From an uncultured Alphaproteobacteria bacterium (GTDB taxonomy: Bacteria; Pseudomonadota; Alphaproteobacteria; UBA11222): a stretch of DNA of 64,000 nucleotides. Shown piece after piece: positions 24,752 to 34,075 of the stretch. The notes under the pieces were generated by a model that was not told the DNA's origin, made no database searches, and worked only from the letters and a program-made list of their open reading frames with translations. The DNA is taken from positions 2,501-66,500 of the forward strand of contig CAMYID010000022.1 in assembly GCA_947258435.1 (NCBI GenBank), written 5' to 3'. How positions within the stretch are numbered: position 1 is the stretch's first letter; each line of letters starts with the position of its first letter. Position numbers and translations under genes: made by a program.

Positions 24752-27484
<2,733 letters not shown>

Positions 27485-27495
27485 ACGATGTTACC

Positions 27496-27528
27496 GCGGA
27501 TACAGCCGGCCCCGGCTTGCTGTACCGC
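27496..27528. terminator. Bidirectional stem-loop between convergent secA and an unknown gene
   Basis: An imperfect long stem: GCGG-A-TACAG at 27496-27505 pairs with CTGTA-CCGC at 27520-27528, with an inner CCGG/CCGG pair. It begins 12 bases after the secA stop and ends at the stop of the convergent small gene. The U-run is weak (CTATTTG). Placement suggests a shared terminator. Confidence 0.45.
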
Positions 27529-27815
27529 TATTTGTAAAAGGCGGTCAGAAATACAGTTGCGCCCCCGACCGTAAATTCGCCTGCACCGATTTTTGTGAAG
27601 CCGTCCGGCGCGGTATCGCCTGCCGGAACAAAGCTGACTTCGCTGCCCGCAGCCGCGCCTGTTTCAAACGCCATCCAGTTGAGCGACCGGCCATCATCGG
27701 ACGTCATCCCGAATGCACAAAGCAGATTTCCCGAGATCGACAGTTTATTGCTGGCAAATGCCGCAATCTCGGCAAGCGAAGTATCGGCGGGAAATAAATT
27801 CAACTGATATGCCAT
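27528..27815 (-). CDS. Small protein of unknown function
   Basis: 95 residues, no family recognised, no signal peptide or membrane helix. The sequence is balanced and protein-like (AYQLNLFPADTSLAEIAAFA, then SFVPAGDTAPDGFTKIGAGE and a hydrophobic end GGATVFLTAFYK). A GGGGATCATGATATG context precedes the start, a moderate ribosome site. It is the last gene of a four-gene minus-strand set with three lipoprotein genes, 31 bp after the nearest, so it probably shares their transcript. Nothing in the sequence indicates a reaction. Confidence 0.55.
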   Translation of the reverse strand: MAYQLNLFPADTSLAEIAAFASNKLSISGNLLCAFGMTSDDGRSLNWMAFETGAAAGSEVSFVPAGDTAPDGFTKIGAGEFTVGGATVFLTAFYK

Positions 27816-27846
27816 ATCATGATCCCCGCTTTCGGATGGTCGCGGA

Positions 27847-28548
27847 TTAGCTCAACTGCCTGCAGGCAGCCACGGCTGCGCCGCCTTCTTCGCCCAGTAC
27901 CCGCACAAGACTGTCATCAATGATCACATCGAAATCCGTCAACCCGTCGTACAGCGCAACAAACTGCGCAGGGGGCGCACCGGTTTCTGTGAAAGGCCTG
28001 TATTCCGGCATATCTTTCAGCCGCGCCATGATCGACGCGATGGCTGAACCTTCAGCCGCATCTGCCATATTGTTGCGCAGCTCATTCAGGCATGGGCTGA
28101 TCGCGCCGAGCAGGATTTTTCCGGTTGCCGAGGGCGCGGCCAGCGGCTTTACCAATCCGAACAGTTGCAGGGTAGCACCGGGCGATTGCGCGATTTTCTT
28201 TGCCGCCGCGCCTGTCGCAAATCCGTTTGAAATCGTCAGATCGTCGTCTTTGCCGCCTTTCCAGAATGCCCCGGCCCTGACGTCGTAATTCGATATCAGG
28301 CTTTTGGCTTCGCGAACCCCGTCCGCATCCGCCTCGCGGGTGGGCGGCACGACGGCGTAAACCTCCCGCTTATAGGCAACGCTCAGCTCGACCGGCTCGG
28401 GTACCGTCGCCGCGGGACTGAAACCGACCGCGATTGCCGTTTGCGCTCTTTCATAAAAGGCGATTTGGTTATTTGTTTCGCACCCGCCCAGCGCAAGAAG
28501 CAGCATGACGGGCAGCATGGGCAAAACCATTGCACAGCGCGCCATCAT
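27847..28548 (-). CDS. Uncharacterised lipoprotein (paralogue of the adjacent one)
   Basis: 233 residues from the ATG at 28548, which overlaps the upstream gene's stop as TGATG. A clear lipoprotein signal peptide, VMLLLALGGC, places the lipidated cysteine at residue 23. The following region (IAFYERAQTAIAVGF..P..VELSVAYKREVYAVVPP...AKSLISNYDVRAGAF...DLTISNGFATGAAAKKIA) aligns by eye with the neighbouring lipoprotein over about 80 residues (shared Y-x-x, YKR, VP, S-x-IS, DL, ATG-x-AA pattern). The rest of the protein (residues about 120-233) is unique, with a DLTISNG-to-C-terminal soluble domain of unknown fold. Likely periplasm-facing; function unknown. Confidence 0.68.
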   Translation of the reverse strand: MMARCAMVLPMLPVMLLLALGGCETNNQIAFYERAQTAIAVGFSPAATVPEPVELSVAYKREVYAVVPPTREADADGVREAKSLISNYDVRAGAFWKGGKDDDLTISNGFATGAAAKKIAQSPGATLQLFGLVKPLAAPSATGKILLGAISPCLNELRNNMADAAEGSAIASIMARLKDMPEYRPFTETGAPPAQFVALYDGLTDFDVIIDDSLVRVLGEEGGAAVAACRQLS

Positions 28549-28919
28549 CAACTTTCCCCCTCGCGAAAGCACTTCATGAAATCGCTGTTCTGGGATTGAC
28601 CGGCATTGCTTTTTGCAACCGCGTCACCAAATGCAACCGCGGCATCCCCGGTCGCAAGATCTTCATAGACCGCAAGGTCGAACAGACGCTCTTTCTTAAG
28701 CCGTGTGCAGGAGATGACCGAAACGGCTTCGCCATCCTTTTCCGCCTCGGGCACAATCGTTGCGAAACGCCGCTTGTAGCCCAGCACGGCATGCCCGCTT
28801 TGTTCCGGTGTGGAGGCGGATACATCAAGCCCCACAGTTGTCTTCTGATAGTAGTAGATCGTATCGGTACAGCCGGCCAGCATCGTGACCAGCAACAAAG
28901 CTATGGCAAGCTGCCGCAT
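28548..28919 (-). CDS. Uncharacterised short lipoprotein (paralogue of the adjacent one)
   Basis: 123 residues from the ATG at 28919 (MRQLAIALLL); an ATG five codons upstream is less likely to be the start of a signal peptide. The lipobox VTMLAGC puts the modified cysteine at residue 17. The mature part (TIYYYQKTTVGLDVSASTPEQ, GYKRRFATIVPE, SVISCTRLKKE, DLAVYEDLATGDAAVAFGDA) appears to be a shorter version of the first half of the next gene's product. It overlaps the upstream lipoprotein gene by 19 bases and the downstream one by one base, so the three are a tight operon. Two further cysteines (ISCT, MKCF) could form a disulfide. Confidence 0.68.
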   Translation of the reverse strand: MRQLAIALLLVTMLAGCTDTIYYYQKTTVGLDVSASTPEQSGHAVLGYKRRFATIVPEAEKDGEAVSVISCTRLKKERLFDLAVYEDLATGDAAVAFGDAVAKSNAGQSQNSDFMKCFREGES

Positions 28920-29419
28920 TGTGCCCCCTCGCAATAACGCAATGATGCGTTGCCCGGAAATCGACTGTTATACCGAAGCGAGCGCATGATCGTCTGGCCC
29001 CGTCCGACCGGAGCCATATTCATCCATGTGTTCAGTCCGAGTGTCAAGCCAGCGACCGGCGCGCCAAAGCTGACATGCAGGCCCATTGCGCGCCCATCGA
29101 CAAATTGCGGCGCGCCGGAACCGTCGGGCCAGCGGCAAAGCCCCCACTGGCTGGTTTGGCCGTGAAGAATACCGGGCCCAAGCTCGATGTTCGGCACCTC
29201 CTCATATGCTTTTGCGAACAGATATGTCCGATCCGCCCAGCCGATGGTCATCGACCGGTCGACGGGATCATTTGCCACCGACAGGCCAAATCCGCGCATC
29301 CGCAACATCTGGCTTTGCGCCGTTTCAATCTGCTGACAGTGAACCATGCCGCCCAGCCGGCCCGCACAAGCCGACAATGAAAACAGGATCAATGCCGCAA
29401 TCAGCACCCGACTATTCAT
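28901..29419 (-). CDS. Uncharacterised lipoprotein with extra cysteines
   Basis: 172 residues from the ATG at 29419 (MNSRVLIAALILFSLSAC), with the lipidated cysteine at residue 18; a longer frame reaching 29584 would bury the signal peptide and was rejected. The mature domain has four more cysteines (VHCQQ, GLCRW, RYCEGAQCG) that could pair in the periplasm, and a GADRTYLF/ QTSQWGLCRWPDGSG aromatic section. It shows no obvious relation to the two lipoproteins after it. No family recognised. First gene of the operon. Confidence 0.66.
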   Translation of the reverse strand: MNSRVLIAALILFSLSACAGRLGGMVHCQQIETAQSQMLRMRGFGLSVANDPVDRSMTIGWADRTYLFAKAYEEVPNIELGPGILHGQTSQWGLCRWPDGSGAPQFVDGRAMGLHVSFGAPVAGLTLGLNTWMNMAPVGRGQTIMRSLRYNSRFPGNASLRYCEGAQCGSLP

Positions 29420-29622
29420 CGGCCATATCCCGTGCGCAGACCGCTGAAATGCAGGCGCAGAAGCTTCGTCTTGTGCTGCCCAAGCCGCTGCATGAGACAT
29501 ATCAGGCCGATCAGAGAGACCGGCTTCTGGACGTTGCCGGGTTTCTGCGGCTGGCAAGATTCGGTGATTGATGATCGTTTGCACGCGATGAGTATCGGTC
29601 TCAGGCGGCTCCTTGTTTCGGT

Positions 29623-30909
29623 CTACTTCTGAAACCGACTGCGATGATGTGCGAGAAAAGGAAAGTGTCGCGCGTCCAGTCCAGATATTCGGAAACCCGG
29701 ATCAAGCCCCAGCCGAGAGCGATTGTTGGTTGATATAAGCGACGAGATCCTGATCAGACCATCGTCGTCGAATGTAATCAGATTGCGGTCGAACAGTGCG
29801 TCGATGTGGGCGCACAGCAGAAGTCCGTTGAAGGGATCGAGCCGTTCCGCATTGGACGCCTCACGCCATGGCTTGATGTGTGAGGCGCGAAGCATCGCGG
29901 CATAATCGACGCCTGTAACCGGACACGCACTCTGCCAGAAAATCAACAGCGCATCGCGAAACTCACCCTGTCCGATCCGTGCGGCCTGTAGTCGTTCGCG
30001 CTCGGTGAGCGGGTCGTCCTCCGGTGCGACAACACGCACGTCCCCGTCCGGAGCTGAGATCGTCGTCCCATGTTTCAGCAGGTGTACCAACTCGTGAAGG
30101 CAGCTCGCATCGATCCCGATGGCGAAACCATGCCGCCCTTCGCTGGCGCGATGATCGGCATTGTACGCTGGAAATGCGCGCAGGTTGCTGTTGACGTAAG
30201 TCTTTACCGGATCGGGTAATGCGACGCCGCCAAGAGCGCGAAACTCATCGGCAAGGTCAATGTAGTGCGGATGGATCACCAGAGGCCGGGTCCTGGTCTC
30301 TCGCTTTACATAAACGACGAGTTCACCGCGGCGCAGCTGCAAGAGTTTTTTAGTTTCGTGGGTTCGCGAGAATCCAAGGTCGGATAGTCCTTCGATCAGC
30401 GCTTCTCCAGCCAGCATCCCGGTTTTCGTAGCCGGTTGACTGGCCGAGACTGGCAGCGCCATCTTTTCCGCATAGCGCGCCCAGCTTCGTACATTCTCTG
30501 TCGGCCAGTCCACGCGCAAAACCCCCACCTGATCAGATAGCTCGTGGCGCAACCTGGTCGCGAAGATGTCGACGGGCTTGCCTTGACCCGGGACGTCCCC
30601 CCGGTAGTCGCAAAGCCAGTCTGCCCTTCTTGTTTCTGTAAGCGTCGCATCAAAGAGTCCGACGAACACGGTTTCGTCCGGCTTTGGATTTACAAAGGCA
30701 GCCCAGATTTTGCGTTCACGGAAGATTGGCCGCCCGGCCTCCTGCGTCGCCTGATAGCGCTCAAAGCCTTTAGGGTCGTCGCGCCACAGATCATGCAGGG
30801 TCGCGAAGTCCTTACCTCGATTGGGAGTATGGTGCCGAATGACGCTGACATCGGCTGGTCTGATGCCCGCCGACGTCAGCAGTTCGTTGAATGTCATTGT
30901 CGAGCCCAT
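29623..30909 (-). CDS. Large HNH endonuclease of uncommon architecture (possible defence nuclease)
   Basis: 428 residues. The C-terminal HNH nuclease is clear: C329 in CPVTGVD, H344 in ASHIKPWRE, N361 in LDPFNGLLLCAH and H368, with HIDALFDRNLITFDDDG after it, as in HNH_2-type enzymes. The N-terminal ~150 residues (MTFNELLTSAGIRPADVSVIRHHTPNRG, then FERYQATQE, WAAFVNPKPDETVFVGLFD) resemble, from memory, a domain seen in front of other nuclease domains (GIY-YIG or HNH) and not otherwise named. A middle section (about 165-290, with RGELVVYVKRETRTRPLVIHPHYIDLADEF) is unassigned. GGAAAGC precedes the chosen ATG; an in-frame ATG four codons later also exists. Single gene beside an insertion sequence, with a palindrome just upstream. 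Restriction-like role is inference. Confidence 0.75.
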   Translation of the reverse strand: MGSTMTFNELLTSAGIRPADVSVIRHHTPNRGKDFATLHDLWRDDPKGFERYQATQEAGRPIFRERKIWAAFVNPKPDETVFVGLFDATLTETRRADWLCDYRGDVPGQGKPVDIFATRLRHELSDQVGVLRVDWPTENVRSWARYAEKMALPVSASQPATKTGMLAGEALIEGLSDLGFSRTHETKKLLQLRRGELVVYVKRETRTRPLVIHPHYIDLADEFRALGGVALPDPVKTYVNSNLRAFPAYNADHRASEGRHGFAIGIDASCLHELVHLLKHGTTISAPDGDVRVVAPEDDPLTERERLQAARIGQGEFRDALLIFWQSACPVTGVDYAAMLRASHIKPWREASNAERLDPFNGLLLCAHIDALFDRNLITFDDDGLIRISSLISTNNRSRLGLDPGFRISGLDARHFPFLAHHRSRFQK

Positions 30910-30924
30910 GCTTTCCGGTGAGCC

Positions 30925-30940
30925 ATGACCTAGAGGTCAT
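30925..30940. promoter_or_regulatory. Palindrome upstream of the HNH nuclease gene
   Basis: ATGACCT-AG-AGGTCAT: two exact 7-base arms with a 2-base centre, 15 bases before the nuclease start. The size and position suit a dimeric repressor or autoregulatory site. No binding protein gene is adjacent, so the role is inferred from position alone. Confidence 0.45.
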
Positions 30941-31094
30941 CGTCTGTGATGATAGACGTCAATTAATACCTGATCAAATCGCCTTCCGCCGGTTAGCCGG
31001 TGCGCTGCGCGTACCTTAGCAATCCGAGCGCGCATTTCTATGACCCGATCATAGCACTGTGTGACGTCAGCACCTACCGGAATGATTTAGCCGA
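30941..31094. other. Short gene-free stretch between the nuclease gene and the IS element
   Basis: 154 bases with no gene. A second smaller dyad is GACGTC near 30955. AT-rich sections (TCAATTAATACC) could hold the nuclease promoter. Together with the left non-coding part of the IS this makes about 380 bases without a gene. Confidence 0.4.
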
Positions 31095-31107
31095 CATTCC
31101 CCAGATG
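31095..31107 (+). repeat. Left terminal inverted repeat of the IS
   Basis: CATTCCCCAGATG, exact match to the reverse complement of 32713-32725; similarity continues loosely inward (GGGCC versus AGGC). Confidence 0.75.
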
Positions 31108-31291
31108 GGCCCCAAATTCGTCTCTGATGCTAGCCAAACGGCCTTCATATTGGAACCATAAAACACGCTTCCGCTTAAAAAGTGGATTTTTAGCCGCCGA
31201 GGCTTGGCCAAGTGGCGTTTACCGCTGAGTTTCAGTCGTTTTCGCATTATCCAGGCACACTTCGCCATCCGTCATCTCATGTTTCCTGCGT

Positions 31292-32635
31292 TCAGCCTGT
31301 CGCAAGGGATGGTGGTCGCAGTTCATCAATCCGCCGCAGGATTCTTCGGAACAGATCGCGGGGCACGGCGACCTCCGCCATCTGGAACGTGACGTAGCGG
31401 CCATGGCTGACGACCTTGGCGCCGATCTTGACCAGCTTTTCGCGGATCGTGGTCAGCGACCAGTGTTCGACTTCCTTCGGCAACGCCAGGGTTCGCATGA
31501 AGTTGGCGAGGTTGTAGGCCAGGGCGTGAAGCTGGAGCCGAACCTCGTTGTTGCGGAACTTGCGGCATGACAACCGCGTCCACTTGATGGCGTTCTTGCC
31601 TTCCTTGATCCACTGCTCGGCGGTGCCACGCTGATTGTAGAAGGCGACGACCCGTTCGGCCTTGCGGCTCAGGTTGGTGACGATGAAGCCGACGCGGGGA
31701 TACAGTTCACCCGGATGCCATTCGACTTTTGCCACAACCCGGCGTTTCCTGTCCCATGATCCGGCCTGATAGCTGAAACTGGCATAATGACGGCGGACAT
31801 GGTTGGGCGGGCGTCCGACCGGACGACGAAGAAGATGGGCGATGCATTCCTGGAGCACCGTGTTGGCCTTGATGCGAATGGCATACAGCATACCCTCGGC
31901 TTCGAGGTAGTCGTAGATGTCCGGTGAGGCGAACGCCGCATCGCCGCGAAAGTAGAGCCGAACTTGCCGTTCCTTATATCGCTCGACCACCGGTTTCAGG
32001 ACATCGAGCCAGCCGTCGGCACTGTGGACGTTGCCGGGACGCAAACGGCACCGTTCAAGGTCACCCATGTGGTTGAAAAGGAACAACGGGTGATAGCAGG
32101 TGCAGCCGAAGTGACCGTTGTAGGCCGTCCCCTCCTGGTCGCCGTAGGTTGGGCTGACGCTGGAATCCATGTCGAGGACCACGTCTTTCGGCGGTTTACG
32201 GTCGTGGACCCGGTCGATCCATGCACCGGACAGGGCCGCAATGTTGTCGTCGGTGGCCAGAAACCCGGTCTCGAAGCGTCCCATCTGGCTCGCCGACGCG
32301 GCCTGCTTGGCGACGGCACGACCGCCGACGATCCATCGCATCGCCGGATCGCGCCCGAGACGCTCGGCGTCGTTCACGTCTTCGTAGCCGCCGAGACGAC
32401 CGAAGGTGGATTGCCGGAACAGGCCCGTCATCCCATGTTGGCCATTCCTGCCAGTCCGAGGATCGACCAGATGTTCGCCGGCAATCTCGCTCAGTCCGAG
32501 AGCATCATCGAGTTCCCGGAAGGGAAGGAAGCCCGCGTCCGACGTGATCTTGGAACCGTGGAATTCCAGCTTCAGCCGACGGTCGAAATCGAGCCGTACA
32601 ACCCCGGTTTCCCCTTCACCCACCGGGTGAGCCAT
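31292..32635 (-). CDS. IS1380-family transposase
   Basis: 447 residues, full length. DDE catalytic core seen as D155 (VVLDMDSSVSP), D232 (YFRGDAAFASPD) and E340, with a complete YREK signature of the IS4 superfamily: Y333, R336, E340, K347 in YNQRGTAEQWIKEGKNAIKW. TSDAGFLPFRELDDALGL near residues 31-48 is the usual IS1380 N-terminal block. No stop or frameshift is visible, so it is probably active or recently active. Transposition is by DNA cut-and-paste. Confidence 0.95.
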   Translation of the reverse strand: MAHPVGEGETGVVRLDFDRRLKLEFHGSKITSDAGFLPFRELDDALGLSEIAGEHLVDPRTGRNGQHGMTGLFRQSTFGRLGGYEDVNDAERLGRDPAMRWIVGGRAVAKQAASASQMGRFETGFLATDDNIAALSGAWIDRVHDRKPPKDVVLDMDSSVSPTYGDQEGTAYNGHFGCTCYHPLFLFNHMGDLERCRLRPGNVHSADGWLDVLKPVVERYKERQVRLYFRGDAAFASPDIYDYLEAEGMLYAIRIKANTVLQECIAHLLRRPVGRPPNHVRRHYASFSYQAGSWDRKRRVVAKVEWHPGELYPRVGFIVTNLSRKAERVVAFYNQRGTAEQWIKEGKNAIKWTRLSCRKFRNNEVRLQLHALAYNLANFMRTLALPKEVEHWSLTTIREKLVKIGAKVVSHGRYVTFQMAEVAVPRDLFRRILRRIDELRPPSLATG

Positions 32636-32712
32636 CGAACTCTCTCCATTCCCAGATCAACCCTCTGATTCTTATAACAGAATCCGATCTTGGCATCATC
32701 AAAAGGCTGCCT

Positions 32713-32725
32713 CATCTGGGGAATG
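32713..32725 (-). repeat. Right terminal inverted repeat of the IS
   Basis: CATCTGGGGAATG on the plus strand, the exact reverse complement of the left repeat at 31095-31107. Confidence 0.75.
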
Positions 32726-32899
32726 GGGGTTCATATAAGTGTCTTACGATATCAAACGCCAAATGACACAGCCCGCTTTTCGGCAAATAGACTGGAAAAA
32801 GGTTCCCTGTCGCCGCAATATGGCACACACCCACGGCGAACAGCCATCGCCCGGGCCAGAACGTGCAAGAACCCATCAACAAGTCGAGGGAGACACCCC

Positions 32900-34075
32900 A
32901 TGCCGGCACCGCAACCCTTTACCGTGAATATTCCACAAGCCCGGCTTGACTGGATTCACCGCAGGGTGACGGAATTCGAATGGCATGAAATGCCCGATAA
33001 TGGCGGCTGGGATTTTGGAGCCAATCTCGACTATATGCGCGACCTTTGCGGCTATTGGCTGGACAGTTATGACTGGCGCGCGGCCGAAGACGCGCTCAAC
33101 CGGTTTCCGCAGTTTACGGTCGACATCGACGGTCAGCTTGTCCATTTCATCCATGAAAAAGGCTCGGCAGAAAAGCCCCGACCGCTGATCATTTCCCATG
33201 GCTGGCCGGGATCAGTATTTGAATTTCTGCATGTGATCGAACCATTGGCGCATCCTGAGCGGTTCGGCGGCAAGGCAGAAGACGGCTTCGATATCATTGT
33301 CCCGTCCCTGCCCGGCTATGGTTTTTCGGGAAAACCGATTGCCGATGGTGTGGTCCGTCCCATCGGGCCGCGCCGCATCGCCCGCTATTTCAACAGCCTG
33401 ATGACCGATGTGCTGGGCTATGACAGCTATCTGGCACAGGGGGGCGATTGGGGCAGCATCATTTCAGGCTGGATGGGGTATGATTTCGGCGCACCGGCCG
33501 GCAAATGTGCGGCCATCCACCTGAATATGTATGGGTTGCGGTCAGCCGATGCGGTGCCTGAAACAGCGGAAGAAAAAAAATTCGCGCAGGAAGCCGCGGC
33601 GGTTCAGGACCGTGAAATGGGCTATTTCCGGGAACAGGCCACCAAACCGCAAACACTGAGTTACGGCATGATGGATTCGCCGGTGGGGGCGTGCGCCTGG
33701 ATCGTGGAAAAATTCAATGGCTGGTCCGATACCGATGGCGACGATATCGAGTCCGCCTATAGCAAGGATCAGCTGCTCACCAATGTGATGATCTATCTGA
33801 CAACGCGCAGTTTCAATACGGCAACCTGGCTTTATCGCGGGCTGTTTGATGACGGCGATTTCGGGATCGGGCCGGGCGAACGGGTAAGCGTGCCGGTCGG
33901 GGTCGCCAACTTCCCCAAGGACTTTCTGGGCTGGCCACCGCGCAGCCTGGCGGAGAAAACCTATAACATCACCCATTGGACCGATATGGGTGAAGGGGGC
34001 CATTTCGCAGCCCTTGAGCGGCCCGAGAAGTTTGTCGCGGATATTCGCCTGTTTGCCCGCTCGGTCGCGCTGTAA
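32900..34075 (+). CDS. Epoxide hydrolase (alpha/beta hydrolase with EHN domain)
   Basis: 391 residues from the ATG at 32900 (MPAPQPFTVNIPQ), which has a GAGGGAGA ribosome site; the frame is open another 70 codons upstream, into the insertion-sequence end, and was not used. The N-terminal EHN domain (LDWIHRRVTEFEWHEMPDNGGWDFG) precedes an alpha/beta hydrolase core with oxyanion motif HGWPGS (100-105), nucleophile D183 in QGGDWGS, and the catalytic His in GEGGHFAALERPE. It should open epoxides to diols; the natural substrate is unknown. Confidence 0.93.
   Translation: MPAPQPFTVNIPQARLDWIHRRVTEFEWHEMPDNGGWDFGANLDYMRDLCGYWLDSYDWRAAEDALNRFPQFTVDIDGQLVHFIHEKGSAEKPRPLIISHGWPGSVFEFLHVIEPLAHPERFGGKAEDGFDIIVPSLPGYGFSGKPIADGVVRPIGPRRIARYFNSLMTDVLGYDSYLAQGGDWGSIISGWMGYDFGAPAGKCAAIHLNMYGLRSADAVPETAEEKKFAQEAAAVQDREMGYFREQATKPQTLSYGMMDSPVGACAWIVEKFNGWSDTDGDDIESAYSKDQLLTNVMIYLTTRSFNTATWLYRGLFDDGDFGIGPGERVSVPVGVANFPKDFLGWPPRSLAEKTYNITHWTDMGEGGHFAALERPEKFVADIRLFARSVAL

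Follow-up and report, generated by a model that had tools for sequence, protein, structure and literature searches.

The protein described here, 428 residues long and encoded in a 64,000-nucleotide window (the whole stretch of DNA analysed) from an uncultured alphaproteobacterium, is probably a restriction endonuclease of type IV-like character, encoded by one gene and dependent on DNA modification. It joins an N-terminal domain like that of UzuA of the Uzume system, a middle domain resembling YgaC of E. coli (DUF2002), and a C-terminal HNH nuclease domain like that of VcaM4I. The reading frame starts with ATG and is uninterrupted over 428 codons on the minus strand, at the coordinates and strand given in a preliminary description of this DNA; with a frame of this length and three independent homology matches, the ORF is not a chance one. 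The features of the gene and its surroundings are listed in Table 1.

Table 1. Coordinates of the nuclease gene, its predicted parts and the adjoining features in the window.
Feature	Position	Strand	Basis
Whole gene, candidate three-domain modification-dependent nuclease, 428 aa	29623..30909	-	ORF and HMM matches
UzuA-type N-terminal domain, predicted PUA-like sensor, residues 1-165	30415..30909	-	UzuA match, model
YgaC/DUF2002-like middle domain, residues 166-290	30040..30414	-	Pfam, BLASTP, profile
Lead-in helix and HNH nuclease domain, residues 297-428	29623..30021	-	HNH_2, VcaM4I, Foldseek
Catalytic residues H344, N361, D370, D374	29788..29880	-	VcaM4I alignment
DDE transposase of the insertion sequence (IS)	31292..32635	-	PF13701, E 2.6e-136
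12-bp perfect inverted repeats of the IS	31095-31106 and 32714-32725		Repeat search
Segment with gene and IS, absent from same-genus genome G001	29420..32759	.	blastn

A full-length match to the HNH_2 profile (positions 1-66 of 66; E 1.2e-13) covers residues 329-381, and the VcaM4I chain 6yex is matched by residues 301-395 (E 2.5e-19). H344, N361, D370 and D374 align with H224, N241, D250 and D254 of VcaM4I, and their columns are invariant in a 33-row alignment of HNH domains. For VcaM4I the accessible text reports that mutation shows H224, D250 and D254 each to be needed for full activity (PMC7897488). Since the four catalytic residues are kept, the nuclease domain is complete, as the preliminary description had held. 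In a model of residues 161-428 the block-mean pLDDT is at least 93 from about residue 311 onward, and Foldseek searches with the HNH model returned VcaM4I (E 5e-9) and next TagI (E 8.7e-4), both described in the source passages available as modification-dependent enzymes (for VcaM4I, PMC7897488).

Chains of CBASS Cap5 also appear in this Foldseek list, at best with an E of 0.21, and they lend something to a different reading, in which the protein is a suicidal nuclease of abortive infection, triggered by a ligand or by infection, whose front part senses a small molecule or a phage protein much as HNH-bearing Cap5 senses cyclic dinucleotides. In the literature excerpts available, Uzume figures as a system whose mechanism is unknown, which would accommodate such a reading. 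However, no cyclase or partner gene adjoins the nuclease gene, and the HNH domain is far nearer to those of VcaM4I and TagI, so we consider a triggered suicidal nuclease very unlikely.

In 42 of 385 genomes of the class and 68 of 398 genomes of the phylum at least part of the query is matched, in most cases the HNH domain, which is also carried by 37 loci on viral contigs. The front parts that precede it are varied, and some of them were recognised by eye as EVE-like. On plasmids of Acidithiobacillus and Sphingobium, N-6 DNA methylases adjoin related HNH genes, and on the Pseudomonas aeruginosa plasmid pPAG5 (stretch 24773-29202 of the record) a related gene, split over two frames, directly adjoins HsdM and HsdS, with Zorya genes nearby. 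Because members of the family also occur beside methyltransferases in pairs of conventional look, an HNH domain of this type is not by itself proof of modification dependence. These pairings are what one would expect if the window protein were an orphan or solitary restriction enzyme with an unmodified recognition site and self-protection by a methyltransferase encoded elsewhere, and its own genome does encode, besides a second N6/N4 methyltransferase, a CcrM-like adenine methyltransferase (a strong match, yet under the curated cut-off). Nevertheless, the nuclease gene has no methyltransferase nearby, and no UzuA match was found in four plasmid HNH proteins, two of them methylase-paired, or in the front piece of the pPAG5 protein. 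We therefore regard an orphan enzyme as unlikely and retain modification dependence as the preferred reading.

The N-terminal domain is of the kind found in UzuA, a catalogued anti-phage protein. Residues 4-164 match the PADLOC model of UzuA, PDLC03973 (E 9.1e-20), over model positions 2-149 of 278 only. It is thus a front domain of stand-alone nucleases, as in the preliminary description. In an alignment of 27 rows, 17 columns are invariant, and all are kept in the window gene. One alignment that mixed N-terminal and HNH fragments (A12) was misaligned and not used, so each part has an alignment of its own; another (A2) held no stretch conserved enough to scan with. The N-terminal domain matches no Pfam family at E values up to 5, no EVE sequence-model match was found among the 27 rows, and a profile of the domain has no sequence match among PDB chains, including those of CMoRE and EVE.

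With 26 relatives in the alignment, structure prediction for residues 1-165 reached a pLDDT of 84.9 and a pTM of 0.82. Foldseek searches with this model gave nothing at E 0.001 or better; the top entries are THYN1 with 5mC DNA (E 0.014) and CMoRE (0.046), followed by a pre-60S ribosome chain (0.17), VcaM4I (0.2) and PH1033 (0.25). With VIA-align the best match is to residues 129-256 of CMoRE (Z 7.2, rmsd 3.5, 116 aligned), and CMoRE accounts for the first three of the 50 matches listed, the other 47 being ASCH, EVE, THYN1, McrB N-domain and YTH structures. The front domain of VcaM4I itself is matched at Z 4.7. A Z below 8 may reflect a mere common arrangement, and YTH entries recur many times among these matches; the fold match is therefore support and not proof. 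Base readers head the fold search of the front domain at middling scores, and the model suggests that residues 1-165 may adopt a PUA-like base-reader fold. The C-terminal domain of CMoRE binds 5hmC, according to the accessible text of PMC12923530.

Relatives of the N-terminal domain carry other rear parts. Proteins on Sphingobium and Phenylobacterium plasmids match the UzuA model end to end, and their rear parts differ from that of the window protein; in the Sphingobium protein the Pfam GIY-YIG match lies just under the cut-off (22.4 bits against 22.6). A GTDB pattern scan with the N-terminal domain returned 29 loci, none of them a three-domain copy; most are from Sphingomonadales, and by eye their rear parts show a GIY-YIG-like motif. 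Among the 32 N-terminal-domain loci from the viral and GTDB pattern scans, one (L041) runs off its contig end; at L064 the frame shifts near the end of the domain and then continues. The phylum search added a 578-aa protein in genome G730 with 50% identity over residues 4-163, whose rear part matches DUF3427 at the cut-off and T5orf172 weakly. It lies in a defence-like island with a reverse transcriptase, Vsr, a GHKL ATPase, a response receiver and an Mrr-type nuclease, and beside integrase-like and resolvase-like proteins. This G730 protein (L089:7603-9339) and three viral HNH proteins (L102, L109 and L128) have in common the pattern IAFAPSR..GY, by eye exact in L109 and G730 and looser in L102 and L128; the stretch is possibly another exchangeable DNA-reading domain.

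On plasmids, 13 of the 21 records with a relative of the front domain are typed as conjugative. The closest relative of the N-terminal domain, in genome G466 from the phylum search (67% identity over residues 4-119), is truncated there and adjoins a transposase of IS3 type, as read from the translation. Taken with the absence of the window gene and its IS from G001 (see below), these observations would fit a passenger nuclease of mobile DNA, serving competition between elements, bringing the host no benefit and decaying. The window copy, though, is open and keeps all its catalytic residues and all 17 invariant N-terminal columns, and a decaying passenger is in our view quite unlikely.

The preliminary description left the second domain unplaced. 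Residues 174-255 resemble DUF2002, although the Pfam match is weak: 20.2 bits (E 5.9e-4) by hmmscan and 23.2 bits in a six-frame search of the genome, against a cut-off of 23. In a single BLASTP comparison (E 3e-6) the middle domain and E. coli YgaC are 35% identical across 93 aligned columns, and with a two-row profile built without YgaC, 2g7j, the structure of YgaC, is recovered (E 0.011). The far stronger match of profile A10 to 2g7j (E 2.6e-40) was discarded as circular, because A10 includes YgaC. Structure prediction gave no usable fold for this part (pLDDT 28-59). No winged-helix match was found in the protein by sequence (Pfam).

DUF2002 was matched in one of 372 genomes of the class, the window's own, and among 398 genomes of the phylum the YgaC-free profile found two stand-alone proteins besides the window gene. 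The stand-alone proteins (L092 and L093, in G649 and G711) are about 120-130 aa long; L093, the sole one scanned, has no Pfam match at E 0.01, DUF2002 included. With the middle domain alone as query there was no plasmid match and no viral match. On pPAG5, however, a YgaC-like domain (E 2e-8) precedes the HNH domain behind an unrelated front part; similarity to that front part extends to stretches in Nostoc (in a DUF1524 protein) and Gemmatirosa plasmids. A short Acetobacter HNH protein may also have the middle domain (pairwise E 0.001).

The nuclease gene is accessory at this locus, since G001 lacks both the gene and the IS at the same site. In a blastn comparison of positions 27001-33200 with G001, 27001-29419 (80%) and 32760-33200 (86%) align, 25 bp apart. 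The adjoining transposable element of the preliminary description is a DDE-transposase IS whose left repeat lies ∼190 bp upstream of the start of the nuclease gene. Beyond it is an epoxide-hydrolase-like gene, and on the other side are lipoprotein-type genes and SecA (all read from translations). Synteny with G001 breaks exactly at ATG 29419, which is probably the start of the lipoprotein-type gene at 28901-29584, rather than the upstream GTG. The GC content of the gene (0.579) is like that of the window (0.59), so that foreign composition was uninformative as a sign of transfer. Neither the neighbouring ORFs nor Pfam matches of the neighbours include a methyltransferase or toxin gene adjoining the nuclease, in agreement with the earlier account.

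That account had also weighed a housekeeping family, conserved in single copy across the order at this location. The order-level search gave a match in one of six genomes, the window's own, and with the gene absent at the locus in G001 such a family was rejected; nothing was found in its favour, and a housekeeping DNA-repair enzyme is extremely improbable.

Elsewhere, no copy with all three domains turned up among 385 genomes of the class and 398 of the phylum, nor in scans of plasmids, phages and GTDB; since the pattern scans have low sensitivity, missing copies are no proof of uniqueness. The viral and GTDB pattern scans returned relatives of the N-terminal domain alone. None of 139 matching plasmid records covers 80% of the whole protein, none of three phage records does so, and viral contigs gave no whole-protein relative. 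A PADLOC scan of 57 of the 58 non-overlapping ORFs of the window, all except ORF 28530-28937, matched 18 models, 16 of them in one ORF; its output names no matching ORF save the query. The window gene sits in an ordinary region and not in a defence island. Defence islands do hold two genes related to parts of it, that of the G730 protein and the one on pPAG5, whose surroundings include HsdM, HsdS, ZorA, an EH-signature protein and a helicase. The type IV-like, phage-defence reading of the preliminary description is partly supported: the UzuA front, the VcaM4I-like nuclease, the accessory status and the islands of the relatives favour it, and the ordinary region and the middling fold match temper it.

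The protein can be set against several known systems. UzuA (PDLC03973/PDLC03974) shares the N-terminal domain, but its own C-terminus is a GIY-YIG nuclease, whereas Pfam finds no GIY-YIG in residues 165-428 of the window protein, only DUF2002 and HNH_2; for this reason we do not file it as UzuA. VcaM4I, an EVE-HNH enzyme, has the same four catalytic residues and a front domain of PUA-like fold, which the model of residues 1-165 matches at Z 4.7, but the front of the protein described here is not EVE by sequence and the YgaC-like middle domain is extra. CMoRE/PD-T4-3 (9u75), a 5hmC-specific enzyme, provides the best fold match with its C-terminal sensor, but differs in its nuclease, an N-terminal GIY-YIG, and in domain order. 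The PUA-wH-HNH enzymes such as HhiV4I, described in the accessible part of PMC11037411 as having three parts and 375-496 aa, are alike in the HNH end and the predicted PUA-like front, but the middle domain here resembles YgaC/DUF2002 and is not a recognised winged helix. YgaC, finally, is a stand-alone protein of 114 aa, and the version here sits within a nuclease. The protein is thus neither UzuA nor, by sequence, EVE-HNH, and most likely works like a modification-dependent HNH enzyme. In literature searches, with most subscription papers and the original Uzume report outside their scope, neither this architecture nor a role of the UzuA front as a reader was found described; there was no paper linking two of Uzume, UzuA and GIY-YIG, and no occurrence of the name DUF2002.

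We propose that the N-terminal PUA-like domain would hold a modified base in incoming DNA, that the HNH domain, probably dimeric, would then cut near the bound site, and that the region before it would restrain it until the target is bound, with phage defence as the presumed outcome. The YgaC-like domain may serve as a second DNA contact or as a spacer. Restraint and release are inferred because a PUA-like front with a VcaM4I-like HNH domain is the plan of known modification-dependent restriction enzymes; in VcaM4I, according to the accessible text, the HNH domains dimerise, a linker helix restrains them, and the authors presume release on binding of modified DNA (PMC7897488). The target is most likely a modified cytosine, because the nearest sensor structure binds 5hmC and the host genome shows no C5-cytosine methyltransferase but a CcrM-like adenine methyltransferase and a second N6/N4 methyltransferase. 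The search for the former (PF00145; control positive in 10 of 14 genomes) was made in a genome 95% complete, so its lack is not certain. With no such enzyme, the host's own DNA would carry no marks of this sort for a reader of modified cytosine to encounter.

The union of the UzuA front with a nuclease domain like that of VcaM4I, together with a predicted fold like that of base readers, offers a testable mechanism for Uzume, and the function of DUF2002 receives a first hint from the occurrence of YgaC-like domains in two HNH nucleases. We also raise, as a tentative and rather doubtful extension, that the UzuA front and the CMoRE sensor, whose authors report no homologues, are branches of one class of PUA-like readers of hydroxymethyl- or glucosyl-cytosine. 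The reader class would then have been joined independently to GIY-YIG in UzuA, to DUF3427 and a T5orf172/GIY-YIG-type end in the G730 protein, and to YgaC and HNH in the window protein. If this were true, Uzume would belong to type IV restriction, and the YgaC fold would be a second module for reading DNA, one so far undescribed.
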